NCBI RefSeq assembly: GCF_000003605.2
Contig: NW_003128865.1
Span: forward strand, 285,919 to 307,204
Length of the DNA: 21,286 nt
Direction of reading: 5' to 3'
Source: Saccoglossus kowalevskii
Taxonomy: Eukaryota > Hemichordata > Enteropneusta > Harrimaniidae
Positions 323-18,420 of this stretch are shown in pieces. Each line of letters opens with the position of its first letter. The stretch's first letter is position 1. The translations under genes were made by a program, and so were the position numbers. Below the pieces are notes generated by a model. The model was not told where the DNA came from, searched no databases, and saw only the letters and a list, made by a program, of their open reading frames with translations.

Positions 323-508
323 CATTACACTTACACGAAATGGATGATGCGGTGACGATTCAAATTCCCGACGGAATGGCTGATGGTGATGTCATATATA
401 GTCCAATCGAGGGTAGAGGGGGAGGAAAAGAGGCAATATATTGGTACAGCTTTGGCGCTATAGTTCCAGATTTGTCACCAGACCCATACCCTTTCAAGCT
501 TATACAGG
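323..508 (+). CDS. Exon 1 in window: start of EC repeat a
   Basis: The acceptor AG is at 321-322 and the donor GTAAGA starts at 509. Both ends are phase 1, and the exon is 62 codons. The peptide has the A/B-strand pattern of an EC repeat (VTIQIPDGMADGDVIYS) and a later PYPFKLIQG, the usual F-x-I/L segment in mid-repeat. The upstream phase-1 acceptor means more exons lie before the window. The exact acceptor is less certain than for the other exons, because the polypyrimidine tract is weak. Confidence 0.6.
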
Positions 509-3500
509 GTAAGATAAGTGTTATGAGTTGTTCACTGTACGTTAAATAATCATATGTATACAACATGTTGTTTTATTTTCATTATATATTGTTTGCATTA
601 TTAAAGATCCAACCCCTTCTAAAGAAAACGAAGCTCAACTTGTGGCAGTGGTTCCCCCAGGATTTGACACTATTCACGAATACGTTGTTGATCTAGTGTT
701 AGAAGATTTGAATGACAATAAATATTTCACTTGCACTCTGACACTTCAAGTAACACTTTCTTTATATGTTGATGCCCCATACAACGCCACAATTGGAGAA
801 CATGCAACAGTGCCCCAGACAATTGCCAATATAACAGCTACAGATGCTGACGGACAAGCGAATGATGTAACGTTCATCATTATTGATTCGAATCCTAAAG
901 ATGCCCCGTTTCAAATTGGTCCAGTTACAGCTTATCAGGATACATCAGTTGCAGGTTAGTATTTTTCATAGACTACGTATTGACTAAATTCGTTCCTTCA
1001 AATGGGTATTCGACTTGTCACCCCTGACTTTATTTTTACCGTGCATACAGTAATGTAATGTTCTATCCTGTTGTATAACAGTTGCACACGAGCTCACGTT
1101 TCAAAACTCATTACACCTCATTACGGATCTTTTATATTTCAACACAACTGCAGACCCTATTTAACTCAATACACCTATTGCTCTGTACAAATTAAAACAA
1201 CTGTAGACCATATATTATCTACAGATTATTATGTAACTCATCATTTTTCAATCCAGTCGAAGTTACGCTATTGATAATCGATCTTGTCACTAAACCCAGT
1301 TCTGTTTCATTCCAAACTACCATCTGCAGAACTTCAGAATGTGAATTTACCCGGATTTGACTACGAAACAGGGACAAATGTTTACGAGTTATTCATCACA
1401 GTTTCGGATACATCAGGAGGAGATGTGGTGAAAACTGCTACAGTGACTGTCTACATTTTAGACGAACTGGAACCTATGATAATAACCAATTTGCCAGACT
1501 CGATCACTATATCCGAATCTGTACTTGGGAGTGTGTTTATAGTTGAGTGGGATCCACCTCGCGAGCCGATATGGATGTTATCTACATCGCCGGTCAATGG
1601 CCCATTTAGTATCAATGCAACAGGTAAACATATGACAGTATACAAATGTTATCTCAAGCAGAGGTGGACATACAGTTTTAGCGACGATTCAAAGAACTCT
1701 GAGAGGTCTCTTTAAAACTGTCTGTCTACCTCTGTTAGGGCAAGTATTTGTATTGTATCATAGCGAATAAATCTCGTCTTTACATGATAGATATTTTAGT
1801 AGCCTTAGGCATAATTGTAACCATCGCATAAAACGCATCAGAGAAACAAATAAATAATATTATTGTTCACACTCAGTTTGCTAGTTAGTATCATACTACG
1901 CTAATACATGTACATTTTCAGTATTCTCTTCACATGACTGTAAAATTTCAAAAGACGTGGTTGGGGGAATGGACTATTGTTTTTACTAATTCCAACAACC
2001 TACCACGGCCCACGTCATGACGTGAATGTTTGTTAAGCAGGCTTCCATTAATCTGTTTGAATCACAGTTATTTTTAATTCCCACTTTACTAATGCCTCAC
2101 TATTTTGGGACTGGTCACCGACACACCCGCATCGAGTACAGAAAGCTGCTAGCTCAAAGCAGGAACATATTGTTATTCTTCCATTTTCCATCCATACCCA
2201 TTTGGGGATGGTAGTTTAGGATTTGTCACTTTATCATTATTCCATATGATTCCGCTTTAGCAATAACTACCTTCAAAGTGTGTGTGTATGCGTTAGAAAT
2301 GTAGAGGAAACATGAATCTATCAGCGGCAAACATTGACCTTGCAACAAAAGATAATTCATGTTTGCCAATTGCATCTGTTTAGATTACCCTTGACTTGCA
2401 TACTACAAGTAAACAGGCAAACAGAGACCAATCTTCTTTTAGTTCACAGATGAATTCTTCCAAGTAGCCAGGTTAAGTTGTTTCACTGGAGGCCACAGAT
2501 TGGTATTTCCCCCTTTGAATCTGCTCTGATACAAAATTTGCAAATAACCTGTAACCAATTTCGCGTTGTATATATAGATCTTCTTCAGCTTTCACTGGCA
2601 TAAAGAATTCGTTACTTGATTAAATAACTCATCACTCTTTACTGCACAAGGATTTGTACAGGTTTTAAAAGTTGCCATAACGTTGGGATACAGCAGAATA
2701 GGGACAATGGTGTTGTGTTCAGCCAGGAGAATCCATTCCTTCCATCTGTCATCATTGAGCTTATGTAGTTCGTCTTGCAACTCTGGAGAGACCAAGACAA
2801 ACTTGGTTCATGCAGAGAGGGGTTATGAGTTATGCCCACTAACCCACCAGATACTTTCATGGACCTGTTAATTTGATCAAGAGCATGGTCAGCACCAAGA
2901 GTAAAACACGCTACTTGTACATTCATTTTCTTCGCTCACTTTCCTTTAAGAAATTCTCCATAAATTTCAGGGTCAGACTTTTTGATGAACTTCATTTTTG
3001 CAAGATATAATGGAATTATTCGGGATAGTTGAAGCGACAATGTACGTGGTGAACATTTCAAGAGCACGTAAATGCAGCTCCCAGTCCAAGTACGCACTGT
3101 ACAGACAAACAGCATTATTTACCAAACCATCTGAATATACTGACACTAACATGGAACAAAGGCTTGCTTCCTAAGAATTGGTCAAACTCACTCATCTTCT
3201 CCATCACTTCCGGTGATTTGTTGACATATGATTTATATCTTCAACACTTATATCTTTGAATGCTTGTTTAAGATTATTTTTAAGGTCTTTAAAGTTAGTT
3301 TGTAGCTGTGTATGTTTTACGAAAAATGCCTTCTTATACAATTTACATAAATCTTAGAGTGTCACAATATGTGCTGTTTGATCTTTTGCAACATGGTTTC
3401 CATCTATGATCTGTTTCACGGTAGCAGGTCCATATAGATCAGTTTCAATCCAACACAAGTCAATTATTCTCAACGATAGGCACCAATGAGTCATAATTCT

Positions 3501-6500
3501 GCCGTCACAATATGAAGCTCTCTGGGGAGAAAAATGAATATAATATCATGTTGAAATATTCGAGGTCGCTTTGCAGGCTTGTAAAGTCCCATATGAAGTG
3601 ATATGACCCGTTTTATGGACCTTGTGCCTGCATTAGGATTTTTAGCAAGGTCTGCCATTAATTTGGTGGGTGGGTAAATAATGGTGGCAAAAAAAAACGA
3701 TGTCGTTTGGAAAATGACGTCCATCTTAAATTTATCAACTCATGTTATATAAATATTTTTAACAATTCTGGATAGGTTGGCATCTCACGGGATTTTTTTA
3801 ATGACCTTTGACCCACACTATGTTCGGTATAAAGTTATTACATGGTATCCTTTACCAAAGCTCAAATTGAATAGTGGTGTATCACGTTTGCCTACTTTGA
3901 AGCCGGGGTTGGATTTGCTCAATTTAGAATGATAATCGGATTTTACAGAGGGATTGTGACTTACGAGGAGGAAACAAAGACTTACGCCATCCCTCTATTT
4001 TATTTTAGAAAGTTTAGGCTCGGAACTGACAATGTCATGTAGATTGTACAAAGAGGATTACATTTACATTTATCACCTCTAGTTGCGCTGAATTTCGCAT
4101 TGGCTGTATGACAACATCTGACCACATATCTTTATAGAATTGTGCTTAAAATCTAAACATTGAACTTAAATCGATCATTGAGGAAAACATTCATATTCGA
4201 TGCTCGGTAAACGAAAACAAGTTTTTTTTTGTAAGCACGGAACGATGAGGTCTTTGATGACAACATCGATTTAATTGCATTTGGAAATGACAATTTGAAT
4301 ATTGATCTTGCTATTCAGTATTTTACAATTTATACACAGCTAAGCAACAACATGTGAACCGAAATTACACTGCAATGGCTGGTTCAACAAACAAGCTTAT
4401 AAATATATAAATGACAATAATAAAACCTTTTGGGGTTCTTTTAATTATTATTATCTTATTATCATTATTTAATCCAAATGTAGATATGTTACTATACACA
4501 GTAATGGAATGATATGAGTCATAATTTCAAGATTTCTTTACCTTTAAAAAAATGTGATTATACCGTTGTATCATTCTTCATTGAAACTAATAAATAATAT
4601 TTTAATTTCTAATTTAGTTATTTAAGAGTAACGGTAAACATACTCTGTTCCTTCGCTTATTAGGGTCGGTGAATGTAGTCTCGCCGGGATTGAACTACAA
4701 ACAGCACACCTCTTATGATGTAACAATATTTATTGGCGATGAAGAAGGTTTTACAGACAATAAGGTGTTACACGTCACGTTGTTACCTAACCTAGGACCT
4801 GAAATCACCAATCTCAATGATACTATACAGATTAGTGAAATGAGTGCAGGAGGAACAGATATTTTTGTTGTACAAGCTGTGGATAATGAAGGAGACGACT
4901 TTTACTGTGTCATGTTTGCCAATCCAAATGATGGTAACTTTGGGTATAACTCGTCCAGTAAGTATATAATTTGATCTTTTGATCTATTGGGGTTACAAAC
5001 ACTAATTCGCTTTATTCGTTCTTTTTGAAATATACTGTTTCAGAATTGTTACATGGACGCATTTAGCCGAGCAGTATACGTAACGAATAGTTGCCACCAT
5101 ATAGGAACCGTTCGTGACATATCACGTGACATGCTACCCTTTTGAAAGTGTTGATGCTCAACAATCACGTATGCTAAATATATACAGTTCTAGATATTCT
5201 ATAGGGAGTGATTGTATAAGGAGTGACCATTAGAAACTTGAGGAAATTAGAGGAAATGATATAAACAAATCCCAACAACCACCAAATTGAAACTGAAGTA
5301 AAAATGTTCTGCTCAGTTTTGCTACTATTTTTCCTTTCAAAATTTCTAATAGTCGCCTCCATTGATCATGATTGGCTTGTATGCAATTTATCCTGTCACG
5401 TCATATCAACCATTACAAAATACAACAACCTACTGTTTTTTTGTGTCTCGCTTTCCGACTTCATCATCGTTTTGTCATGTTCTATGCGGGTCCAATTCGC
5501 CCTATACAGCTGCTGTAAAATATATTGATTGTTGAGTTTGTTTATTGGGGTTTGAATATGTGCTACCTTAGCTTATTTGTTTTATTTGCGGGATGCACTC
5601 AACTTTATGAGACGATGAACCAGACACATCTTGAATATATGCGAATACACGTTAGAAAATCAGTTATAGTTCCGCGGCTAATGACGGCCAAGTGAATGTT
5701 CAATATTTACTGGAATCTAATATTTTGATTGTTGACGTAATTTCAATTGATGAATTGGCGGTATGATTCTCGAAGCTGGTCATGTTGTGGTGGCATTTAG
5801 TTTTCAACATTAAGGTTTTGAAATAGATGACACAAATCAAAACTCTGTTTTAATTTTCGAACGTTTCATTTTATTGAATTGCTAGGGAACCTTTTCCGTT
5901 ATTTGTATATTTTCAGTCGACGGCGAGCCCAAGAACATAACATAATAACCAAAAACAAGCGCAAACTACAATGTTACCAGTCAGTTCTGTTTTGACGCCC
6001 AGTGTTTAATATTCATATAGATTAACACGTGCTCCTTTCGTACAGCCACGCTATCTGATTCGTGGCTTAATTAAATTGGAGATTGAAAACAAGGTCAACG
6101 CTGAGTAAGTCAGCGTCCTTGTGAAACAAGGAACTACTCACGACGAGATCAACAGTCGATTGGCCACTCAACATCCGAGCACTAGTGGAATTTCTGAAAG
6201 AAGCTTGCGACATTTTGTACTCATCGTGGTATACACACTCTAATAAATGTGAATCGCATTGTAAGTTGGGTGTCTGTGAACAAAATTAAGAGGACTAAAA
6301 CATTGCAACCCGCCCCAAATCACCCTTTCTGGCAACGGAGTATAATTTTCAAAAGTGAAGTATGACGACCAAGCGACTGGCGACTGGTTCATTAATGAGC
6401 GAATGATAAGCCGCGTTGGGGAATGACCATCATTAACCATTGACCGTTGTAGCAAAAGTTAAAAAGTTAACAATTTCTAATCTAACAATTATCCTTTCCT

Positions 6501-9500
6501 TAAACACAGCTAATTCTATCTACGTCATCAACTCGCCTATTCTGAATTTTGAAACTGTGGATGAATACACCTTGAGTGTAACGTGTCATGATTTAGGTGT
6601 CACTAACACTAAGCCTGGCACACCTAAAGTACTGACTGTTCAGATCACTGACGAGAATGAAGCACCGATACTTACTAACCTACCAGCAACAGTCAAAGTA
6701 CCTGAAGACGCACTCAATTCGGTATCGATATTCCAAGCTGACGGTTATGATGTGGACGGCAATTCTCTCAGTTTTTCTCTCACAATAGTCTCACCTGTCT
6801 CCGGGCAAGGGAAGTTCGCTGTAGCCGACTCAAGTAAGCGATAGTTATTTGTGTCATTTTTTTAAACCAAATACAGGGATTCATATCAAGTAAATCAATG
6901 ATGTAATGTTTAAATTATCGGATCGATGGAACAATGCATATAAGTTGTCTAAAGGTGAATATAGCTGCAAATAGCTGCAAGCACCGATAGTGGAAGTACT
7001 TGAGGTTAAGTATTTAATTTAAAGAATTGAGGAAAGTAAATTGCTAGCATCAACATGTATTTTAATTTCATAGTGTGTATGTGTGTGTAGCATCATTCAC
7101 CACAAATACGGCGGAAGACGGCCGCCCTTGACGCCACGTGCAAGTGAAAATTGTACCTGGCCGGTTCGGTTCTCACAGGACTGCTTTCACGTGCATGCAT
7201 TTTGCCAATTATTTAAAATAACTCATACTCACAGGTTAATACTGTGACATTATTGTTATCAGGCAAATATTGGTTTTATAAAACGTGATTCTTACCGATT
7301 TCGAGGTGGGAATCATCAGTGGATTGTTCCTCACAAACAAGCTTGTGACAAGTTTCTCACAATATTCTGTTTTATTGGGGTGTTACATTTTTACAAACAG
7401 ATGGGAACGATGGTACTGTTTCTATATCTAACAATCCTGCTTTCGACTTTGAGGATGTGCAGCAATATTCATTGGTGTTGGAAGCAACTGACGGAGAATT
7501 CACTGCAACTGGTACTCTGACTGTTGATATTATGGATGTAGCCGAACCACCAGTATTTGTGAATGATAACCAAGATGTATATATCGATGAAGAACAGGTG
7601 AGAAATATGTACTCCTTTTTCATGCTTGTTTTGTAATTGATATTCGCCATTGATCAATTTAATTTATGCATGGCTAATTTATCAAACATATCTTTACAGA
7701 TTGTTGGGACATTAATATCTCTTGACTGGACTGTAACTGACGTGGATGATGTATTAACTGATTTAACATATAATATGATTGCTGGAACTTATTCTCCATA
7801 CTTCAGTTTAACTGATGGAACCAATCCAGAATTACGTATTGCACAAGTCATGGATTATGAAGCATCCTTCCCAGTCCCATTTCCCATAATGTTTACTGTC
7901 ACAGACCCAGCTGGAAAGAAAGATTATCTAACAGTTAATGTATACCTTCAGAATATTTATGACAATGCACCAATTTTCACCCAGATAGTATATTCCGCAG
8001 ATGTGTTTGATGGAGAATCGCAAGGTAGTCCTGTACTGCAGGGTCTAGCAACAGATGTAGATCTATTTGACATCATTACGTACTCCATAGAGCCAGCAAA
8101 TACATATTTTGTTATTGACTCACAATTAGGAGAAGTAACTGTAAATCAACCCATTAACTCTTCAATCAGTGGGGATATCATTAACTTTACACTGGTTGCT
8201 ACTGATCTGGGATCGAATCAAGACACAGCTTTTGTTCAGGTTACTGTTGCAAGTGTCAATAAAATTCATGTGATTATTGATAGCAACGAACGTCCATATT
8301 GGAATTGGGAGGTGCCTTACGATTTGACCAACGATACATATGTTAACAACGTCGTCACAAATAACCAGATCTTCGGTAGGATGGTATTCTTATAAATGAA
8401 TATAAAATTACATACATATATATCAACTCACGCATGAACGAACACACAAATTATTATTGAGTTATGTTTGTGAGATATTGAGTTATGTTTAGTTTATATA
8501 TGTTGCTTTATTGTCTATTTTGATGGTCACGTAATTATGTCACTCTCACACTGATCTTGTTTTGTATGTATTAAGCCAGACCTTCGTTTTCACAAATTCG
8601 ATCACATTTGTAAATTATATTTCAGAAAAGAGTGGTTCGATCATTTATAAGTTATATATGCCAAACACACGATTTAGAATTACAACAGATGGTCAAGTTT
8701 TCGTAGCAGGCAAACTCATGGCAGAAGAAGAATACATATTAATGTACTATGTAGAAGACGATCGCATACCTCCAATCAAGGCAGGGTGAGTGTACTCTAT
8801 TCATATATATCCACACAAAAATCATGTTAGTAATGAAGTAGATGTGAAATCCACTGATATTGAAATTATAACACAAAAAATATACAGAATATATTATGTA
8901 CAAAGTACATTTTTTATCATTATGTCGATACTTTTTGTTTAAAGCTGTTTTTATGTTTTCAATGTTAATAATAGACCACTGTAAAACCACGTGGCTGATA
9001 ACGTTTCTTAGAAAATATCTTAACGTAGATTGTGCAACGATCAACTGAAGTGTGCTGAATCGTGACGCACAGTCAACTGGCATGTTTATCGCTGTTATCA
9101 TTTGAAATGATTGTAGTTATATTCATTATTACTGTCATTTACGTTTCCATATGTTCTGCAAAACTGTTGTTTTCTATGTAGCTGCTCTCAACATTTCATT
9201 GACATGTTATATGTCAAATTCAAACAATCCAAACATTAGCGCATTAGTGTGTACAATACATCAATCATATCAAAATATTGTAATGATGATAACTGAAGTC
9301 ATCATGTCACCTAAATCATATCACATGATTTGTACGTAATCATGTAACATAACTATTAAATCATCAAATGAAGATTTTCTTTGATCATGATGAATTATAA
9401 ATTGTGTATATTATTATACACATGTCACTGCAACGCCATAAGTTACAGCATACCTTTATTTTACGTTATTGCACGGGGTATTTGCAAATTCCAAATTGTG

Positions 9501-12500
9501 GAACGAGTTCGCGCGTAAGTGTCCTTTAATAATAAAAATAAACATGACAGCCCCGGCAAACCCTCTACTGTATTCGTGCATATTTGTTGATATCCTCATA
9601 ATAACCTCATGATATTAATACTTGTATAAATTGGTCTCAGAGAAACAAATATGCCAATATGCCAGTATTTCCCATTGAGATTTGAACAGTAACACCACTC
9701 AATAGGTTACACCAGGTATGACCATATCGATCACTCTTGGTCTGGATACTGGTGGTGGATAATGTGCAGGTCCCAGATACAAGTACATCCAAATGCGGTA
9801 ATTGTAAACGACGTAAGACACCAGGAGTGCTAATCACGGAGGCATGGCAGACCCACCATTTATTTATCTTCTTCACAAATGTTCGTTAAATCGGAATATT
9901 TCAGCATGACTCTCATTGCTTAGAATTAAATTGTTAATTAATTCATATATTGATCTTCTATATATCATCTACAGTGTTTCAATGATTCGTATTGACACCT
10001 ACATACCACAGATGGTTCTTGTGAACATACATCTGGGCATTTCAGTTGCTGATTTCACGTCCTCCAGACAGACTGCTTTTATTTCTGCTTTGAATAAACG
10101 TTATAAACCGTGGAAATACAGAATATCCTCCATTCGCAGTGATACAACGGTGTCTACAAGAAAACTTCTTCAAAAGTGAGTAGTATAGCAGTAACAACTA
10201 CAAATGGCAATATGAAAACATATAAATGTACAAATATCTGGAAATAATCCCGACAATGTGTACAACAGAACTGGTGATGGTTGTGAACCATGACTGCCTC
10301 AGACTGCAAGAATATTGTGTAATGGAAGGGAATGTAAAGGGAAATGTATTGTACTGTAACCTCTCAATATATCTGCATTAACTTTCACCGTGAATGACAA
10401 TGTGGGAGTTGACTTAAATGACGGGTAGAAGCAAGGCTGGTCACATTTTGCGAAATAGTAATTAGTTAGAATTACCAGACAAGCAATAGAGACATTGAGA
10501 TATAGTTGGAATTGAAGCAAAGGAGTTATTAGTCCATGAAACAAGAATTGTGTGTGGGGAAAGTTGTCATGTATACAATCATAATAAATTGAAATGGTTT
10601 TAGAACGGAAAAACTGTTTTATGACTGTAAATAATTATTAACAATAAAAACTGAAATTTAGAAACTATGAACAATAAATAATAAAACTTGGAAACTATGA
10701 ACATTTTATAATGAATAAAAATGCTGTCCATTCTATTTATTGTATTATGCTCAATGACGTACCTTCACTCTTGAACACTTAAAAAACATTGTCTCTTCTA
10801 GTGTTGTATGAACCTGAATGAAAGGTCCGGAGTCACGGCGAATACTTCTAGCGAGTCCCGCTCTAAAAACCTCTACCAGCCTAGGTCTTGTACATAAAGC
10901 AAATGATGTATTTACTTTTTATTGCTTATTTTGTTATTTTTGTTACAATCATTAATGTGCAGGGTAATTACTCTGGCCAATGATATTGAACTTAGCTCTT
11001 CGATGAAGCAGTGGTTTTCTTCTTCAAATAATTTAAAATACCCTTAATACCCTTAATAGAAGTATGTCCATTGTTTCACAAGAACGACTGTCCCAGGGGA
11101 TTTTCGTCTTCTCAATTTCTCAAGCTAAAGTTTTTTTTTACTAGAACTAGAACGAAATGTCTTTTGGCAGCACTTCTTGCATTAATTTTCAGTGCCCCAA
11201 CAAAAACAGAAAATACTGTTCCTGAAGCACAGAATTTACATGTATTTTTTTTCCAAGGCCATTCACGCAAATCAAAGCTATTACCGCCTCCATAGTTGTT
11301 AACACTTTGCAGCCCCCATGATGGATGTATTGTGACGTATTTTGACCCCCGGATTCTGACCTTGCATTTTGGCTACATTTACTGACCTTTCATACCAGTT
11401 CAATTTTCTTTAAATATTTCATCCTGATTTCATGATAGTTAATATTTAAAACTAACCTATTTTACTGGTCAAAAGACTTATCACTCCCATCATGCAATCC
11501 TCAACAGTACTTCCACAGATACAGCGACGATAACTAATATAAATACAAAAAACCCTCGCTCTCGGAATAATGAATCCAACAGTATTTTCCTATTCATTTA
11601 ATATACTGCATCAAAGCCATTCTAAAGTGTCGTTTATCACTGTTTTATTTTCAGCACAGCAATTGTAGTAGTCTATGCGTTAAAAAACGATCTTACCAAT
11701 TCCCAGGACAGCGTTGACTCTACTAAGGAATTTGTATACTTTGTGGATCTTGCAGAGGCAATGCAAATTGATTCAGATGGTACACCTGTGGCTCTTTTAA
11801 CTGGAACAGATTTTGACGAATTCCCTGTAGAAAGTGTGAAACCAACATATGAACTCATTAATACACATAATAGCTATAGCTGGTGGCTTGACACACCTGA
11901 AGGAAATGTTACAATTGCCATCTTGATATTATTGGTGATAATTGTCATTGTCTCCATATGCTGTTGCTGCTGGTTCATCATTCGCAAAAAAGCCCGAAGT
12001 GATAAACAAGAAATTACTTCAAGAGCCGATGTTGACAAGAGTGGTGAGAATAATCTAAATAAGTAAGTTCACGTGATGTTATCGTCACATATAATTAGAC
12101 ATTATGAACAGCAAACGAGGGCTACGCTCGTTTATCATCTCCCGCTAAATATGCTAATATCCCCCAGAGAGGTCTTTATCTGCTAACATAACATACTCAC
12201 ACAAGAAATGCGCTACAGCATAGTTTCATAGTTGCAAATTTTCAATTATTCCAACGTCGTTTCTTGGACTATACTACTGTCGTAAATTTGGTGGATGTGG
12301 GTTTCTATTTGCGTGACAAATGTTTTAATTTTTTTCTTTTCAACATTTATTTTATTTTATTTTATTATTCACTGGCTGACATTTTATTCAACGTTTGTTT
12401 TGGTAATCGAAAAGCCTCACATGTGGCGATATGTAAAGTAATACAAAATAAGATGTAATGAAAATAATATTATATAGTAAAAATAAAATAAAATAAAAGA

Positions 12501-15500
12501 AAATATAAAATTAAATTAAATTCACGCTGCAAATTACATCAGATTTTTTACATGAGATTGATACTAATTAACATTAACAAATATATTGGTGACGAACTAT
12601 GGAATACATCATCAAAAATCCATCAGGAAATATACATATATGTTAATGCCAGTATCCGTAATTAGCCAACTAAATGTCAATTCTTCTCATAGTCAATGAA
12701 TTCTGATCCAAACTAACCAAGTTTAACTCCATATGATGTGCATTCCATTTATATTACATATTTATAATAAAGTGATATATTGAGCGTAGATCCACTTAGC
12801 CCAATTAAATACATAAACTCGGCACAAAATAAAACCAATACACACCTGAATTTCAAAAGAATAATTCTCCAAATAATTGCATGCACCTACCACTTTCCAC
12901 CATCAAAGATAACTATAGACTCAGCCGAATCACTAAACCATGACCTTTGACCTTTACTGACTCTAAATATTATAATTTTTAATCTAACCTGAATTCCACT
13001 CACCCAAACAAACAAACAAACAAACAAGTACTGGCGTAAAACCCTTGTGCAATTTTCCAGTATTTTGTCTATGTGGCCCAGCTGAGCTGTCACTCTACGG
13101 GTAATGTGTGAGTCCACCATTAAGAATCAGGTTATTTCTGATAAAAAATCAACTACGATTTTAAGGCTTGGTTATTCTGCTGGCATGTTTATTTGGAAAA
13201 TTCCTGCTTGACATTGCTTCTAGTTAAACATAAATACCATGTTACATAATAGTTTACTATGTAAGCGTCTTGTGTCTATTTAATTCTAGCTCATCCATTG
13301 TACATATATTAGAAGATAAGAAACTCATTGAAAAGGATGGGATGATTACTGATCAGTCAGAATTACAGAAAAACGTGGGCGACAGTTTAGATGAAAAAGA
13401 TGCTGACAATAATGGTATTAAGAAGGACCTGGTCGAAAGCGAGTGAGTTTATGTGATTGTATCAGCACACGTAATTCAAATTGTTTCTATAACATTCTAG
13501 GTTGTTACCATTTGTATTCGTATTACATTTGTATATTCTCATGTATATTTACTTCAAGCGTGCCAGTCGTTGAGAAGGCAGGTGTTAAGAAACTCATTGA
13601 AAAGGATAAGCTGTCGAGGGATCAGTCGAAATTAAAAAGCGGCGTTGGGGACAATTTAGATGAGAAGAACGTCGACAAGAATGGTATTAAGAAGGACTCG
13701 AACGAGTGAGTTTAATTATATCAAAACACATAATACAAATAATTTCTAGAAAACTCGAATATGTTGTTTCCTTTTGTAATGTGAACTTGCAATGCATATG
13801 GTCCATTCTCTTCAAGTGCTTCCGTTACCAAGAAAGCAGGTGTTACGAAGCAAAATAAGAAGCTAAAGGACAAAGATAATCTATCTAGTGATCAGTCAAA
13901 ACTAAAAAACGGCGTTGGGGACAATTTAGATGTCAAGAATGTCGACAAGAATGGTATTAAGAAGGACTCGAACAAGTGAGTGTATGTAATGTTATAAGCT
14001 CATACAAAATGGTTTCCAAGAAATTAAAGATTAATAATGAGAAAAATGGGAAAAAGAAGCCAAAATATAGTGATCAGTCAAAATTAAAGGGAGACCTTTT
14101 AAAAAAATTTGATGAGAAAGATGGTAGTAAAGAGTTGATTTTTTTAAAATTGGATGAGCTCAATTTAGAATATAAGTCGTTTCTCGTGTTCAAGATTAGT
14201 TTATAATACATATGTCTGTTTTCGTACATATTCTCTCAAGGTCATCCGTCGTTCATAAAGCAGGGGATACGAATCTGAATGAAAAGAAGAAGCTGTCTAG
14301 TGATCAGTCTAAATTAAAGCAAAGTTCAGGCGTAAAAGATGACACTCGGACGTCAGACAGTGCGTCGAAGAAAGAGTTCACTTCATTGTCGCAGATGAAA
14401 TATACCAATCAGAAAACTGGGAAGGATGCCACGGTAGAGCATAATTCACTAGCGATTGAGAAAGATGGTACACTAGTGAATACTCTATCTGCACCTGAAA
14501 ATAATAACAGGAAAGACAGTGTAATAGGTCCTCTTCCGGATATGTCCAAGCAGAATGAAACAAAACCAAGGAAATTGAAAAAGGGTCAGTCAATGTCTTA
14601 ACACATTGGTTGTAGAAAAGTCATTATTAGGTCAATAAGCGACGAAACAGACAAAAAGGTTCAAGCATTTGACTGAAAGAAAATGAACAAAGTGAGATTA
14701 TGATATCGGAGATTGTACTAAGTCAGTTCCATTTGTTTCTCAATGCAGGATTGTCGACAAGAAGTCTTGTTTCAAACAAGAACTTGACTAGCAAAGGTGA
14801 GTACATAATACTTTATTAAGATCTAATAGAATCAGTCATTGCTGCTGCACTCTGCATCAACTTCATTCAATCCTGGCAAAAAATTCCATTTAGTAGTGGT
14901 CTTCCTATTTTCAAAATTTAATTCAGTATCCTACAAATATAGATATGGAGACTAGTTAATTTAAGAAATTAAAAAGTACAGAGCTATTAATCATGTAAGA
15001 ATTATAATGTCGTTTTATGAACCTTAGCATTAAAACTACTGTGTTATTACGACAATTTGGATGGAAAATATGTTTTATAACATGCTTTGGAGTGCGGTTG
15101 TCTATATTCAGAACATAAACTAATATCAAACTAATATCGATTCTCTCGTATTCAGAAATGTCACAATCAAGAACCAGTCTCCAACAAAGTCGCTCGGGTA
15201 AGTACACATTGATAAAACATATCAAATTGCGCATTTTAGATTTAAAAGATAATAATGGCAACAAGGAGGTAACTGCACAAATAATAATATTATAATATAG
15301 TATAGCAATCATTGATATTTAAATTATCATTCAATAATAATGTCAGAAATCCACGAACTCTTCATGCACTGACAAAAAATCCGCAAATATTCGATAACAA
15401 TCTTATAATTGAGGTGAACAACGTCTACTTGTAGCTGCATGGTAGAACTAGATTGATGTTCTTATTTTATATCTTTTATTTTATATTTGTAAAATATTTT

Positions 15501-16611
15501 TCGAACTGCCGTTTTTTTTAGCTATTGTCAAAATGTTTTTGTTTCTGGAGTGACCTTCTGAATTTAGGTTCTTCTCAAGTCTGTCATAAATATATATCTA
15601 ATCTGCTGTACGAAATTATTGATGTTTTTGGGCTCGGAAGCGCAGTGGTATTTTTTTAGTTCACTGTACATATAGAGCCATTAAATCGTTAGGACAGTTT
15701 CCATAACCATTTATATGCAAAATTGTAAATCTAAATAAAGTCCAATAAACGTATATCCAATGTCACGTCTCAGTTATCCACAGTGTTATCACTATCTACC
15801 ACGGCTTGTGACATATGTGACGATTTAGATGAAAATCATGGTGTCTGTATAACATGCTTTAGAGTGCGACTGTCTTTATTTAGGACATATACTAACAATT
15901 CAATTCTCTACATGTATAAACCCTCAAGTATAATGTTTAAATATGAAATACTCACGGTGTATTTTGAAACCCACACCAATACATATATTTTCATTGCAGA
16001 AAACAGAGCACGAAAATATATGGGTACTAAAGCCGGTTACAAATCACATACGTGTGTTTACTCTTTACAACTAGACATACTAACCAAACTTTCTGTACAC
16101 AATACATTCAAAGTTTACATAACAATGTAACGTCCGCCTATTAGTGTCATTGACCTCCCACACAATGCATAACCATTTACAAGAAAATTCAAATAGAGTC
16201 TAATAAACATGTGTGTGACGTATATACAATGTCACGCCATTCTACAAACAATACGAGTGATGTAGTTTTTTGAACATAGTATTGGAATTCCAACGAGAAC
16301 AATCTGTGATGTACACCATCATTGTGATTTGAATTTACATGCAATTTACACGTCACAAAGGTAATTTTACGTTTTGCACTTATTTGCCTAGCTGTATATT
16401 TTCAGGTCAATATTGTATCTATTATACTATTTTTTTCACTTGCTGAATATTTGTCAGTCGTTTGTTTGTTTTTGTGGTTGTTTTATTTTTACTACATAAT
16501 TTTAATTGATTATATTTTACAGTTAGAAGACCCAGAGATGACAAGGACAATTTTAGTATTTCCAGCAGAGTAACCGAAAAATTCAAACCTGAAGGGCTGA
16601 AATGGTTTTAA
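323..16611 (+). CDS. Cadherin-like single-pass transmembrane receptor, 3' part (17 exons, partial gene)
   Basis: This is the gene-level entry. Joining exons 323-508, 607-954, 1330-1623, 4664-4957, 6510-6833, 7401-7597, 7700-8375, 8626-8785, 9975-10175, 11655-12062, 13290-13442, 13559-13705, 13817-13975, 14241-14584, 14749-14796, 15156-15197 and 16523-16611 gives one uninterrupted frame of about 1355 residues. All introns are GT-AG and the phases match at every junction. In order it encodes about eight EC repeats (residues 1 to about 830), a membrane-adjacent domain (about 830-975), a transmembrane helix (about 977-1001) and a Lys/Asp/Ser-rich cytoplasmic tail (about 1002-1355). By family knowledge EC repeats mediate calcium-dependent adhesion at the cell surface. 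The partner and exact role are inference. The N-terminus, signal peptide and promoter are outside the window. No classical cadherin tail (catenin-binding region) or laminin-G/EGF modules are seen, so it is not a classical or Fat/CELSR-type 3' end; CDH23/PCDH15-like proteins are the nearest architectural comparison. Confidence 0.85.
607..954 (+). CDS. Exon 2: end of EC repeat a and first half of EC repeat b
   Basis: The acceptor TTAAAG ends at 606 and the donor is GTTAGT from 955. The exon is phase 1 to phase 1, 116 codons. It reads PGFDTIHEYVVDLVLEDLND, the G-strand side of repeat a, and then starts repeat b with DAPYNATIGEH and ITATDADGQANDVTF. ATDADG is a good DxD calcium motif. The linker between the repeats has only DAP where a canonical cadherin has DxNDNxP. 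Confidence 0.85.
955..1329 (+). other. Intron 2, nothing further recognised
   Basis: This 375-base GT-AG intron ends in a good acceptor (CCATCTGCAG). An open stretch at 1071-1274 has no domain and no coding character. Confidence 0.6.
1330..1623 (+). CDS. Exon 3: end of EC repeat b and first half of EC repeat c
   Basis: The acceptor CTGCAG ends at 1329 and the donor GTAAAC starts at 1624. Phase 1 to 1, 98 codons. GFDYETGTNVYELFITVSDT is the typical LDYE...Y.L.V.v.D pattern that closes repeat b. LDELEPMI stands in for the DxNDNxP linker. Repeat c opens with LPDSITISESVLGSVFIVEW and stops at GPFSINATG. It has exactly the same length and break point as exon 4. Confidence 0.88.
2011..2024. repeat. 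Perfect 14-base palindrome CACGTCATGACGTG
   Basis: The bases equal their own reverse complement. Two CGTCA/TGACG half sites, the core recognised by many bZIP factors, meet head to head. It lies in intron 3, just beyond the 3' end of the antisense element. A regulatory role is inference. Confidence 0.4.
2130..3730 (-). mobile_element. Decayed multicopy invertebrate ORF (transposon-like), antisense in intron 3
   Basis: Read on the minus strand, one ancestral protein can be followed through several frames broken by stops and frameshifts. In order the pieces are NPNAGTRSIKRVISLHMGLY and AKRPRIFQHDI (about 3680-3545), IDLCWIETDLYGPATVKQII (about 3470-3410), EKMSEFDQFLGSKPLF (about 3215-3150), YLDWELHLRALEMFTTY (about 3090-3045), KSDPEIYGEFLKG (about 2983-2945), GADHALDQINRSMKVSGGLV (about 2900-2840), VSPELQDELHKLND (about 2795-2750), KGGNTNLWPPVKQLN (about 2518-2470), KEDWSLFACLLVVCKS (about 2440-2390) and LPSPNGYGWKMEE (about 2215-2175). 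From memory this matches a large uncharacterised protein family present in many copies in cnidarian and mollusc genomes, which I cannot name. Fragments are missing between about 2390 and 2215. The piece is an intronic insertion and cannot make a protein. Confidence 0.7.
3802..3814 (-). promoter_or_regulatory. DR1-type nuclear-receptor motif GGGTCAAAGGTCA
   Basis: The plus strand reads TGACCTTTGACCC. Its complement is two AGGTCA-like half sites spaced by one base, the consensus bound by RXR, HNF4 and COUP-type receptors. A near-identical copy lies at 12941-12953. There is no other evidence of function. Confidence 0.3.
4664..4957 (+). CDS. Exon 4: end of EC repeat c and first half of EC repeat d
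   Basis: The acceptor CTTATTAG ends at 4663 and the donor GTAAGT starts at 4958. Phase 1 to 1, 98 codons. Joined to exon 3 it reads INATGSVNVVSPGLNYK, an intact mid-repeat junction, so nothing is missing across the 3 kb intron. The LDYE position has become LNYK and the linker is LPNLGPEI, so the calcium ligands of this junction look lost. Repeat d opens with TIQISEMSAGGTDIFVVQAV and stops at GNFGYNSS. Confidence 0.88.
5220..5360. repeat. Imperfect foldback, arms 5220-5239 and 5341-5360
   Basis: GGAGTGACCATTAGAAACTT pairs with the reverse complement of AATTTCTAATAGTCGCCTCC, with one shared ATTAGAAA core plus GGAG and GAC matches and two one-base gaps. The arms enclose about 100 bases. It may be a remnant of a small inverted-repeat element, but no target-site duplication was recognised. 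Confidence 0.3.
6010..6237 (+). mobile_element. Integrase/transposase N-terminal-like fragment with one in-frame stop
   Basis: One frame runs from about 6010 to a stop at 6235-6237, broken only by TAA at 6106-6108. It reads RGLIKLEIENKVNAE, stop, VSVLVKQGTTHDEINSRLAT and GISERSLRHF. The order of a G-x-THxxI segment followed by a SERSxRxF segment resembles the helix-turn-helix start of integrase-like multicopy ORFs of aquatic animals, as I recall them. The downstream catalytic domain is not visible. It is a short intronic fossil and the family assignment is tentative. Confidence 0.4.
6510..6833 (+). CDS. Exon 5: end of EC repeat d and first half of EC repeat e
   Basis: The acceptor AAACACAG ends at 6509 and the donor GTAAGC starts at 6834. 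Phase 1 to 1, 108 codons. ILNFETVDEYTLSVTCHDLG closes repeat d. ITDENEAPIL is close to a canonical DxNDNxP linker. Repeat e opens with TVKVPEDALNSVSIFQADGY and keeps DVDGNSLSFSL, a good DxD site. The exon stops before the turn that exon 6 completes. Confidence 0.9.
6834..7400 (+). other. Intron 5, with a small inverted repeat
   Basis: This 567-base intron contains TGCAAGTGAAA (7139-7149) and TTTCACGTGCA (7185-7195), which pair at 10 of 11 positions around a GC-richer loop, and a GTGTGTGT stretch near 7075-7090. A 10-base tandem ATAGCTGCAA lies at 6961-6980. No gene is seen. Confidence 0.55.
7401..7597 (+). CDS. Exon 6: end of EC repeat e and start of EC repeat f
   Basis: The acceptor TTACAAACAG ends at 7400 and the donor GTGAGA starts at 7598. 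Phase 1 to 0. The peptide NGNDGTVSISNNPAFDFEDV continues repeat e, with FDFE at the LDRE position, then EATDGEFTATGTLTV and the linker DVAEPPVF. It ends at VYIDEEQ, the opening strand of repeat f. It breaks the run of phase-1 introns seen in exons 1 to 5. Confidence 0.9.
7700..8375 (+). CDS. Exon 7: EC repeats f and g and start of h (longest exon)
   Basis: The acceptor ATCTTTACAG ends at 7699 and the donor GTAGGA starts at 8376. Phase 0 to 1, 676 bases, about twice the neighbouring exons. Repeat f has VTDVDDVLTDLTY and MDYEASF. The linker YDNAPIF is near canonical. Repeat g runs from YSADVFDGESQGSPVLQGLA through ATDVDLFDIITYSIEP to FTLVATDLGSNQDTAFVQV, with QPINSS where LDRE is expected. After SNERPYW begins a weak eighth repeat, h. 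NSS, NFT and NDT sequons are possible N-glycosylation sites. Confidence 0.92.
8626..8785 (+). CDS. Exon 8: degenerate last EC repeat h
   Basis: The acceptor TTATATTTCAG ends at 8625 and the donor GTGAGT starts at 8786. Phase 1 to 2. SIIYKLYMPNTRFRITTDGQ then VFVAGKLMAEEEYILMYYVE follows the EC order (Y-x-L, F-x-I, G-x-V, Y-x-L, D), but there is no LDRE and no DxNDN. The repeat therefore probably binds little or no calcium at its lower end, as is common for the membrane-proximal EC repeat. Confidence 0.82.
8786..9974 (+). other. Intron 8 (1.2 kb), no gene seen
   Basis: AT-rich sequence with short inverted repeats, for example TGTGTATA (9403-9410) facing TATACACA (9415-9422). An open minus-strand stretch at 9637-9876 is less AT-rich than its surroundings but has no recognisable domain. 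Confidence 0.5.
9975..10175 (+). CDS. Exon 9: first half of membrane-adjacent domain
   Basis: The acceptor ATCATCTACAG ends at 9974 and the donor GTGAGT starts at 10176. Phase 2 to 2, 67 codons. MVLVNIHLGISVADFTSSRQ, then FISALNKRYKPWKYRI and TVSTRKLLQ. This is not an EC repeat. A strand, a helix with regularly spaced residues (TAFISALNKRY) and another strand (YRISSIRS) suggest a small alpha/beta fold of the ferredoxin-like SEA or membrane-adjacent (MAD) type, as known before the membrane in CDH23 and PCDH15. That link is inference from position and pattern. Confidence 0.8.
10176..11654 (+). other. Intron 9 (1.5 kb), short direct repeats only
   Basis: GAAACTATGAACA occurs at 10661-10673 and 10691-10703 inside similar AT-rich sequence, and ATACCCTTA is repeated in tandem near 11039-11056. 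No gene or element was recognised. Confidence 0.55.
11655..12062 (+). CDS. Exon 10: rest of membrane-adjacent domain, transmembrane helix, start of tail
   Basis: The acceptor TTTTATTTTCAG ends at 11654 and the donor GTAAGT starts at 12063. Phase 2 to 2, 136 codons. NTAIVVYALKNDL and KEFVYFVDLAEAM complete the membrane-adjacent domain. An acidic, Thr/Ser-containing juxtamembrane stretch follows. VTIAILILLVIIVIVSI (from 11908) is a clear transmembrane helix that runs through CCCCWFII to about 11982 and is followed by RKKAR, the positive cytoplasmic stop. The four adjacent cysteines at the inner leaflet are likely palmitoylation sites by analogy. The tail begins SDKQEITSRADVDKSGENNL. Confidence 0.92.
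12063..13289 (+). other. Intron 10 (1.2 kb) with low-complexity repeats
   Basis: (TTTAT)n at 12346-12367 and (AAAAT)n at 12478-12499 are complementary and could fold together across about 110 bases. A (CAAA)n microsatellite lies at about 13005-13027. A DR1 motif at 12941-12953 is listed separately. No gene is seen. Confidence 0.65.
12941..12953 (-). promoter_or_regulatory. Perfect DR1 nuclear-receptor motif AGGTCAAAGGTCA
   Basis: The plus strand reads TGACCTTTGACCT, whose complement is two perfect AGGTCA half sites one base apart. It is the second DR1 in this gene, both in the same orientation and both intronic (the other is at 3802). Function is not shown. Confidence 0.35.
13290..13442 (+). 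CDS. Exon 11: tail repeat unit 1
   Basis: The acceptor TTAATTCTAG ends at 13289 and the donor GTGAGT starts at 13443. Phase 2 to 2, 51 codons. KKLIEKDGMITDQSELQKNV followed by GDSLDEKDADNNGIKKDL is the most diverged member of the tandem exon set. Its LIEKD and DQS-L segments and the GDxLDEK...NGIKKD end match exon 12. It is highly charged and without hydrophobic segments, so it is probably disordered. Confidence 0.85.
13559..13705 (+). CDS. Exon 12: tail repeat unit 2
   Basis: The acceptor TATTTACTTCAAG ends at 13558 and the donor GTGAGT starts at 13706. Phase 2 to 2, 49 codons. VKKLIEKDKLSRDQSKLK, then VGDNLDEKNVDKNGIKKDSN. Nearly the whole second half is shared with exon 13, including synonymous positions. 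The flanking introns (116 and 111 bases) also start alike, which points to duplication of exon plus intron. Confidence 0.87.
13817..13975 (+). CDS. Exon 13: tail repeat unit 3
   Basis: The acceptor TTCTCTTCAAG ends at 13816 and the donor GTGAGT starts at 13976. Phase 2 to 2, 53 codons. KKLKDKDNLSSDQSKLK, then VGDNLDVKNVDKNGIKKDSN. It is closest to exon 12, from which it differs by a few substitutions and an added Lys-rich stretch at the start. It is the most recent-looking duplicate of the series. Confidence 0.87.
14018..14206 (+). pseudogene. Decayed tail-repeat exon inside intron 13
   Basis: The frame beginning KKLKINNEKNGKKK continues into YSDQSKLKGDLLKKFDEKDG and SKEL, a fourth match to the exon 12/13 unit. 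It has no usable acceptor. The preceding bases from 13976 still look like the start of the neighbouring introns (GTGAGTGTATGT), and AG dinucleotides at 13997 or 14020 would leave a far too short intron. It also lacks the NGIKKDSN end and donor, and ends in TAA at 14204-14206. It is best read as a copy broken by a deletion that fused intron to exon. Splicing from 13976 to 14240 removes it. Confidence 0.65.
14241..14584 (+). CDS. Exon 14: tail repeat unit plus unique Ser/Lys/Asn-rich region
   Basis: The acceptor TATTCTCTCAAG ends at 14240 and the donor GTCAGT starts at 14585. Phase 2 to 1. It opens with SSVVHKAGDTNLNEKKKLSS and DQSKLK, the repeat unit, and then becomes unique: SASKKEFTSLSQMKYTNQKT and later NETKPRKLKKG. 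GTCAGT is a less common donor with C at +3. If it is not used, the frame stops at TAA 14599-14601 after GQSMS. I prefer splicing because the next three exons then join in frame. Confidence 0.8.
14749..14796 (+). CDS. Exon 15: 48-base small exon of the tail
   Basis: The acceptor TTTCTCAATGCAG ends at 14748 and the donor GTGAGT starts at 14797. Phase 1 to 1, 16 codons: LSTRSLVSNKNLTSK plus the split glycine codon. Both splice sites are strong, and the length keeps the frame whether it is included or skipped. It is Ser/Thr rich with basic residues, so it could be phosphorylated. Confidence 0.7.
15040..15765. repeat. Imperfect tandem duplication, first unit (A1...B1)
   Basis: Block A1 (about 15040-15148) matches block A2 (about 15806-15909), with a core TATAACATGCTTT then GAGTGCG and TGTCT at 15076-15103 and 15848-15875. 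Block B1 (about 15701-15765) matches B2 (about 16167-16236), sharing CATAACCATTTA, AATAAAC and ACAATGTCACG-like pieces. The order A1, B1, A2, B2 shows an old tandem duplication with large indels. Exon 16 lies inside the first unit. Confidence 0.6.
15156..15197 (+). CDS. Exon 16: 42-base small exon of the tail
   Basis: The acceptor CTCTCGTATTCAG ends at 15155 and the donor GTAAGT starts at 15198. Phase 1 to 1, 14 codons, read as EMSQSRTSLQQSRS. Like exon 15 it is Ser/Arg rich and could be an in-frame cassette exon. It sits directly after the first copy of an intronic duplication. Confidence 0.7.
15806..16236. repeat. Imperfect tandem duplication, second unit (A2...B2)
   Basis: This is the downstream partner of the unit at 15040-15765, shorter by about 300 bases. 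A possible small exon lies within it at 16000-16035. The open frame at 15783-16130 crosses the unit but has no domain and is not taken as a gene. Confidence 0.6.
16000..16035 (+). CDS. Possible extra small cassette exon (duplicate of the small-exon type)
   Basis: A good acceptor (TATTTTCATTGCAG, ending 15999) is followed by 36 open bases in phase 1, ENRARKYMGTKA, ending at a weak donor GTTACA. Its phase and size fit the neighbouring 48- and 42-base exons. The peptide is not clearly similar to exon 16 and the donor is poor, so it may be unused. Confidence 0.25.
16523..16611 (+). CDS. Exon 17: last coding exon, C-terminus EGLKWF
   Basis: The acceptor TATATTTTACAG ends at 16522. Phase 1 in, stop TAA at 16609-16611. 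After a split Val codon it reads RRPRDDKDNFSISSRVTEKF and KPEGLKWF. It is the only short exon downstream that continues the frame of exons 14 to 16. The hydrophobic C-terminus resembles a short binding motif but does not fit a standard class I PDZ ligand. Confidence 0.7.
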
Positions 16612-17562: not shown

Positions 17563-18420
17563 TTATGACAAATACAATGGTACAATATTATGCATGCATT
17601 TAAACATCATTATAGCAGACTGCATTTTCCATTGCTGGTTAATGGGGTGCCAGTTTAGTATCGTCAGTGTTTCAGATGTCGATGTAAACTTTTCCCTACC
17701 AAGGACTAATAACTTGGCAGCTCTGTTATGTAAACGTTGAGTTTGATATTACTACCACAGGTCATCCATACGACAGCACAGTATGTGATTAGGGGAAATA
17801 CTAGTAGTGCCTTAACCATTAACTCGCATGTTTTTTTATCAAGAAATTTACAAATTCTTCAAATAGCTCCAAGTCTTCCTGAAACAGATTGGGTTATCAT
17901 AATGCCATGATCATTAAAATTCAAATACTGGTCTAAAATGACGCCTAAATATTTAAAATTATCAACTACATCAATTTTAAAATTAATATTTTGAATATTA
18001 AAATATTCACGTTAGTGTGTTCCAAACCCTGTGGTACTCTAATTTGTACATGGGAAGTGCTGGACAAACTTCCATTAACATTTGTACACTGAGTACGTTC
18101 TGTCAAATAACTTGTCATCCAATCATGCTCAAGGCCTAATACTAAACTTCAACAATTTGTCAAGCAATAAAACATAATTGACAGTATAAAAGGCCTTTGA
18201 CAGGTCAATATAAATTGCGCCTGTCATTTTCCCACTATCCATATTGGAAATAATATAATCGGATACATCGAGAAGTGTGGTTTCAGTAGAGTGGGATAAC
18301 CTAAAACCAGACTGATTATTTGAAATTATACAGCTGTGTATAAACAGCATGTTCTAAGATCTTAGGAGCAATAGGTAGATAGATTGGTAGGGGTTCTCGA
18401 GTTTCTAATATAGCTGAAAA
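17563..18420 (-). mobile_element. Truncated non-LTR retrotransposon (LINE) reverse transcriptase remnant
   Basis: Minus-strand pieces follow the order of a CR1/Jockey-like reverse transcriptase: LPIYLPIAPKILEHAVYTQL (about 18390-18320), NNQSGFRLSHSTETTLLDVS (about 18320-18265), GAIYIDLSKAFYTVN (motif A, about 18220-18180), WMTSYLTERTQCTNVNGSL (about 18120-18065), VPQG (18037-18026), KYLGVILDQYLNFNDH (about 17954-17905), then ALLVFPLITYCAVVWM and LNWHPINQQWKMQSAIMMFK, ending PLYLS with stop at 17563-17565. Between VPQG and KYLG only about 70 bases remain, so the segment with the YxDD catalytic box is deleted. The D of AFD is Tyr. Several frameshifts are present. It is dead, and antisense to the cadherin-like gene. 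Confidence 0.85.

Follow-up and report, generated by a model that had tools for sequence, protein, structure and literature searches.

The question raised by a 21,286-nucleotide (nt) stretch of the genome of the acorn worm Saccoglossus kowalevskii (contig NW_003128865.1, positions 285,919–307,204; referred to below as the window) is how the cytoplasmic tail of a cadherin could come to contain several copies of one coding unit, and what these copies might do. The cadherin gene was modelled on the plus strand with 17 exons (323–16611, numbered from the first exon within the window, with the stop codon in exon 17), and we found that four homologous units centred on the sequence DQSKLK are encoded by exons 11–13 and the start of exon 14. 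In the reading that we favour, with a probability of roughly 0.55, tandem exon duplication led to a constitutively spliced and probably disordered four-unit tail, whose copies act as docking or modification sites. On this view, tandem duplication in ~270-bp steps would have multiplied a phase-2-2 exon along with its intron, the exon encoding a charged tail segment, free of aromatic residues, in an animal cadherin. Of the at least five copies that resulted, three would persist as the whole exons 11–13, another would form the start of exon 14, where it is fused to other sequence, and a further one would be the remnant within intron 13, which has lost its splice sites. With exons 10–17 spliced constitutively, a tail of ~350 residues would then result, with four successive DQSKLK-centred, probably disordered units; if these served as repeated docking or modification sites, the valence of the tail, and secondarily its reach, would scale with the number of units. 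The array is laid out as follows, with the basis of each assignment in brackets.

13290–13442, plus strand: exon 11, repeat unit 1 (K), 153 nt, phase 2-2 (gene model, splice context, homology)
13443–13558, plus strand: intron 11, 116 nt, homologous to intron 12 (z 11.5, blastn self match)
13559–13705, plus strand: exon 12, repeat unit 2 (L), 147 nt, phase 2-2 (gene model, homology)
13706–13816, plus strand: intron 12, 111 nt, homologous to intron 11 (z 11.5)
13817–13975, plus strand: exon 13, repeat unit 3 (M), 159 nt, phase 2-2 (gene model, alignment)
about 14012–14140, plus strand: degenerate unit within intron 13 (significant at the DNA level, not significant as protein)
14241–14584, plus strand: exon 14, whole, starting in phase 2 and ending in phase 1 (gene model)
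14241–14376, plus strand: start of exon 14, last repeat unit (N5), 136 nt, fused to other tail sequence (gene model, homology)
14377–14584, plus strand: remainder of exon 14, tail sequence with no detected unit (chance-level scores with the unit profile and the introns)

The initial annotation had described one unit of about 50 residues in exons 11, 12, and 13 and at the beginning of exon 14, and local protein alignment bore this out, the score of each of the six pairs among the four units being reached by none of 2000 residue shuffles. The interval given for the array, 13290–14584, runs exactly from the start of exon 11 to the end of exon 14, and the full units do occupy one exon each with phase 2 at both ends, exon 13 having 12 nt more within the unit than the other exons. 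Self-comparison of the DNA also recovered the repeat, as three direct copies of 129 nt with a spacing of 269/270 and as a blastn self match of 13268–13752 to 13537–14023, and a four-unit profile searched against the six-frame translated window scored each unit at 72.5–85.3 bits, having been built from those same units. Over aligned codons, the amino-acid identity was 83% between units L and M, 68% between K and L, and 56% between K and M, and was 36, 49, and 49% towards the exon 14 unit (N5). Ten alignment columns, including the DQS of the core, are invariant among the four units, and exons 12 and 13 share an identical tract of 33 nt. The donors of exons 11–13 scored 12.3–12.8, among the best of the gene, on a site model trained on the same sites. 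The array therefore shows what defines a tandem exon duplication, that is, adjacent homologous exons on the same strand and in the same phase, with splice sites. Phase 2-2 is not peculiar to the repeat, being shared by exons 9 and 10, and in-frame tandem duplication in any case requires a symmetric exon; the phase symmetry alone thus favours no role.

The duplicated segment included intron as well as exon sequence. Homology between introns 11 and 12 (z 11.5, 300 base shuffles), as in duplications that carry their flanking introns along, indicates that, for exons 11 and 12 at least, exon and intron were copied as one unit. Similar short introns throughout the array had been proposed, and this applies to these two (116 and 111 nt) but not to intron 13 (265 nt), which is longer because it holds the degenerate unit. 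Taken as a whole, intron 13 matched the other two more weakly (z 3.1 and 3.0); the score of its start was reached by none of 500 shuffles against intron 11 and by 57 of 500 against intron 12, and that of its 3′ part by 32 and 34 of 500, while the score of the end of intron 10 against intron 11 was reached by 14 of 500. Two other origins considered for parts of the tail were rejected. The remainder of exon 14 was at chance level both as an exonised intron (score reached by 241 of 500 shuffles for intron 11 and 388 of 500 for intron 12) and in comparison with exons 11, 12, and 13 (138, 431, and 424 of 500), and an extra unit further along exon 14 or within exons 15–17, suggested by a resemblance to IEKDG, gave 0.9 bits for the tail versus up to 8.7 bits in shuffled tails.

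The copy within intron 13 was evident at the DNA level, where its score with each of the four exons was reached by none of 1000 dinucleotide shuffles of the intron. With nhmmer and a DNA profile of the four exons, it reached 12.8 bits, whereas the best of 100 shuffled windows reached 9.6 bits; 96 of these windows gave a match at all. As protein, its scores with the four units were reached by 62, 82, 130, and 196 of 2000 shuffles, and it gave −0.4 bits (independent E value 0.38) with the unit protein profile. Aligned with the other copies, the intron 13 copy lacks the usual acceptor stretch and has GATGAG at the donor position, where they have GTGAGT. No donor above 2 bits was found in the scored stretch of the intron (13985–14235), and the acceptors above 2 bits (14029, 14089, and 14194) are in the wrong phase for following exon 13 and reading the unit. 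A working exon at this place was therefore rejected: the right-phase acceptors at 13998 and 14070 scored under 2 bits, as did six donors at 14134–14224, and another right-phase acceptor, at 13980, lies inside the exon 13 donor and outside the scored stretch. The reading frame of the copy is nevertheless open, over 14021–14170 (150 nt; of 5000 base shuffles, 10 kept it open) and within a longer open stretch at 13961–14203 (kept open in 1 of 5000), each shuffle test covering one frame, uncorrected for three. We read this as an exon that would have been lost fairly recently, and it is possible that the copy is in some unrecognised use. The remnant documents loss of a unit besides gain.

Two minor features touch this region. 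The sequence GATCAGTC, at 14072–14079 and at the counterpart in exons 11–14, does not vary among the five copies, the unspliced copy among them, and the synonymous positions of GAT CAG are the same throughout; it is possibly an exonic splicing signal. In addition, the acceptor region of exon 11 (13281–13297) is 82% complementary over 17 nt to 14151–14167, beside the degenerate copy, which is probably due to chance.

Divergence among the copies was then considered as a record of their age and of selection. Exons 11–13 differ by 0.60–0.81 at synonymous sites (dS) and by 0.10–0.28 at nonsynonymous sites (dN), the values for exons 12 and 13 being dN 0.10 and dS 0.60. This high synonymous divergence (about 0.6) shows that the array is not young, and the range of dS among exons 11–13 does not suggest variation in copy number at the present day. 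The divergence thus speaks against an array that would now be changing fast in number, despite the 33-nt tract shared by units L and M. Of the 22 differences between exons 12 and 13, 3, 4, and 15 lie at codon positions 1, 2, and 3, respectively, an excess at the third position (p 0.0009) that indicates that the protein sequence has been kept, at least between those two. Such an excess was also seen for L with N5 (p 0.013), M with N5 (p 0.017), and L with the degenerate copy (p 0.021), and the other six of the ten pairs gave p values of 0.10 to 0.56.

The cytoplasmic tail comprises 353 residues, 328 of which come from exon 11 onward. All four units contain 39–45% charged residues and neither aromatic residues nor cysteine; unit 1 is net acidic (+7, −13), and the other three are net basic. 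FoldIndex values were negative for each unit and for the whole tail, and AlphaFold2, given the four units as an alignment, returned a mean predicted local distance difference test score (pLDDT) of 58.9 and a predicted template modelling score (pTM) of 0.17. These predictions suggest that the repeated tail is probably disordered or flexible, perhaps serving as a multivalent docking segment, akin to the binding platform put forward as a possible role in the initial annotation; no binding partner was found.

The alternatives to a docking tail overlap with one another, and our confidences in them do not sum to one. Best placed among them, although still somewhat unlikely in our estimation, is that the units form a bulk spacer, lengthening a disordered tail with hardly any importance of their sequence. 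The low hydropathy, the charge and lack of aromatics described above, and the absence of a confident fold would all suit a spacer, as would the variable ends of the units, whose length differs by four residues. The ten invariant columns with DQS among them, and the third-position excess of exons 12 and 13, are not what is expected of sequence that hardly matters. The disordered, variable-length linker of the initial annotation is hence retained as regards probable disorder and weakened as a pure bulk linker (15 of 22 differences at the third position, p 0.0009).

We consider it unlikely that exons 11–13 form an alternative cassette in which the exons exclude one another or are included variably, with isoforms that differ in which units, or how many, they carry. 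As the initial annotation had anticipated, copy number is neutral to the frame: all eight subsets of exons 11–13 can be removed in frame with the same stop codon kept, which makes in-frame skipping possible but is a consequence of the symmetric exons. The 17-nt, 82% pairing of the exon 11 acceptor region with intron 13 and a second inverted repeat (13 nt, 92%), between the stretch just before the exon 12 acceptor and intron 10, could also be counted in favour of a cassette. However, the exon lengths are multiples of three, and double inclusion thus carries no frameshift penalty; moreover, introns of 111–116 nt are close to the other short introns of the gene (98 and 102 nt) and do not suggest steric exclusion, so that neither the bar of frame nor the steric bar to joint inclusion typical of mutually exclusive exons was found. 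Of the 22 inverted-repeat pairs in 12063–14240, counted with no shuffle control and, in this AT-rich stretch, weak and likely mostly due to chance, the pair at the exon 11 acceptor region does not share its partner with the one at the exon 12 acceptor region, and no pair lies at the exon 13 acceptor; consequently, no shared competing partner was seen.

It seems quite unlikely that the region is relaxed and decaying, its duplicated exons being tolerated by-products without a role. The lost splice sites of the intron 13 copy would fit such decay, as would the higher dN/dS towards the exon 14 unit (0.26 to 0.64, from the computed dN and dS) and the non-significant third-position excess for exons 11–12 (p 0.12), 11–13 (p 0.10), and 11–14 (p 0.40), but frame and splice sites are retained in three full exons, and the protein sequence of exons 12 and 13 is retained at a dS of 0.6. 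That the tail is a tunable valence module, with exons 11–13 included independently by regulated splicing so that cells would set how many similar DQSKLK docking sites one cadherin carries, and with the open-frame copy in intron 13 as a fifth unit that was retired recently or is used rarely, appears very doubtful.

Several points weigh against the docking tail that we favour. Joint inclusion of all units is presumed. The AlphaFold2 model, made from a four-row alignment, contains a low-confidence helix at residues 3–31, and the unit may not be wholly disordered. When the tail was scanned with 15 motif patterns, 11 were unmatched (WIRS, PxxP, two PDZ classes, NPxY, YxxPhi, SxIP, EB, 14-3-3, p120 core, and EVH1); a single dileucine-like match fell in unit 1. 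Matches to kinase-like patterns, 6 for the CK2-like, 12 for the PKC-like, and 4 for the PKA-like pattern, were too common to mean much. The third-position excess had p < 0.05 in four of ten pairs, one of them with the degenerate copy, and only that of exons 12 and 13 survives correction for ten tests. Finally, no relative of the unit was found in Pfam, PDB, viral_contigs, genome_contigs, or phages, the last three of which hold few or no animal genes, so that negatives there say little about animals. The best match of the 353-residue tail in PDB had an E value of 0.37, and that of the tail from exon 11 on in Pfam was SurA_N_3 (E 0.36); the repeat unit gave 232 candidate stretches in viral_contigs and 83 in genome_contigs, none confirmed, and exons 12 and 13 together gave no relative in phages by tblastn.

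The intracellular effect of an adhesion contact is determined by the cadherin tail, and a tail built by exon copying would show how an intracellular scaffold can change in valence while the adhesive ectodomain stays as it is. The tail of classical cadherins binds catenins through a cytoplasmic domain (Pfam Cadherin_C); the present segment is likewise the cytoplasmic tail of a cadherin, and no cadherin cytoplasmic model matched it in Pfam from exon 11 on at E values up to 1. In titin PEVK, in-frame exons of charged repeat units form an extended segment of variable length, which resembles the charged in-frame exon units of the present gene, whereas here the units lie in the tail of a membrane protein and only four are coding. 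Repeats in cadherin tails are known from desmogleins, where they are about 29 residues long and vary in number among family members, whereas the present units are of about 50 residues and, for three of the four, one per exon; units of ~29 residues in the last exons were not found here. A sixth repeat of the repeat unit domain (RUD) is named for Dsg2 (PMC2905707), and in desmogleins this domain has been assigned to the final exons of the gene (PMC3268089). In the Pfam and PDB searches of the tail, no desmoglein was named, and no direct sequence comparison with the RUD was made. The initial annotation had stated that it knew of no described cadherin tail with this repeat; neither the repeat nor its layout was found in the literature searched, though repeat-bearing cadherin tails as such are known. 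A literature search with most subscription papers outside its reach returned nothing on DQSKLK or on cadherin tail repeats in molluscs, and no description of a cadherin tail repeat with one unit per exon. Tandem exon duplications have been tied to mutually exclusive choice, with Drosophila CadN named (PMC9013439). CadN and SNAP-25 exon 5 have adjacent homologous exons, as here, but in those cases one exon of the group is chosen, whereas exons 11–13 are symmetric multiples of three and can all be joined. Tandem exon duplication and repeat-bearing cadherin tails are therefore already known, and what is different here is the unit length and the placement of one unit per exon.

The remaining parts of the gene relevant to the tail are as follows.

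11655–12062, plus strand: exon 10, which encodes the membrane-proximal region, a hydrophobic and presumably transmembrane segment, and the first part of the tail (frame, splice context, translation)
14749–14796, 15156–15197, and 16523–16611, plus strand: exons 15–17, end of the tail with the stop codon (gene model)

The start of the gene probably lies upstream of the window, because exon 1 opens at an acceptor-like site. All 16 modelled introns have GT-AG borders, and one open frame runs from exon 4 to the stop codon; exon 3 ends at 1623, and the phases of exons 1–3 were read by hand as 1-1. The spliced translation of exons 1–10 matched Pfam PF00028 in five stretches (E 6.2e-35, 119.9 bits, cut-off 28.8), in agreement with the tandem extracellular cadherin domains that define the cadherin superfamily. 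Exons 4–7 matched 31 PDB sequences at E values up to 1e-8, with CELSR1 at the top (5.5e-33) and protocadherins and cadherin-23 also among them. In the translation of exon 10, a hydrophobic stretch is followed by basic residues (CCCCWFIIRKK), and this segment is presumed to be the single membrane span before the cytoplasmic tail. Exon 10 alone gave twelve weak matches in Pfam, the best with an E value of 0.0045 and every one below its cut-off, among which Cadherin_C_2 lay over the membrane stretch (E 0.072, 14.2 bits, cut-off 31.5) and was absent when the longer protein was run against Pfam. Another match to exon 10 (L001, one of eight stretches) was rejected as a chance Cys-rich match, consisting of SICCCCWFI (9 residues) and a 14-residue piece at 43%. 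Exon 9 and the first part of exon 10 (9975–11900), membrane-proximal and extracellular, could encode a divergent extra domain; the Pfam matches of this region were all below cut-off, and the best PDB match of exons 9–10 (E 0.17) was not meaningful.

Elsewhere in the window, overlapping open frames of 60–98 codons on the minus strand of intron 3 (2595–3545) resemble a decayed coding element, and all five of the frames compared with Pfam were without a match at E 0.1. Downstream of the cadherin gene, minus-strand frames at 17862–18011 and 17566–17748, likewise without a Pfam match, look like parts of an element to which an adjacent reverse transcriptase piece would belong. This piece, on the minus strand at 18132–18353, matched Pfam RVT_1 with an E value of 1.4e-6 and 28.6 bits, just below the cut-off of 29.6.
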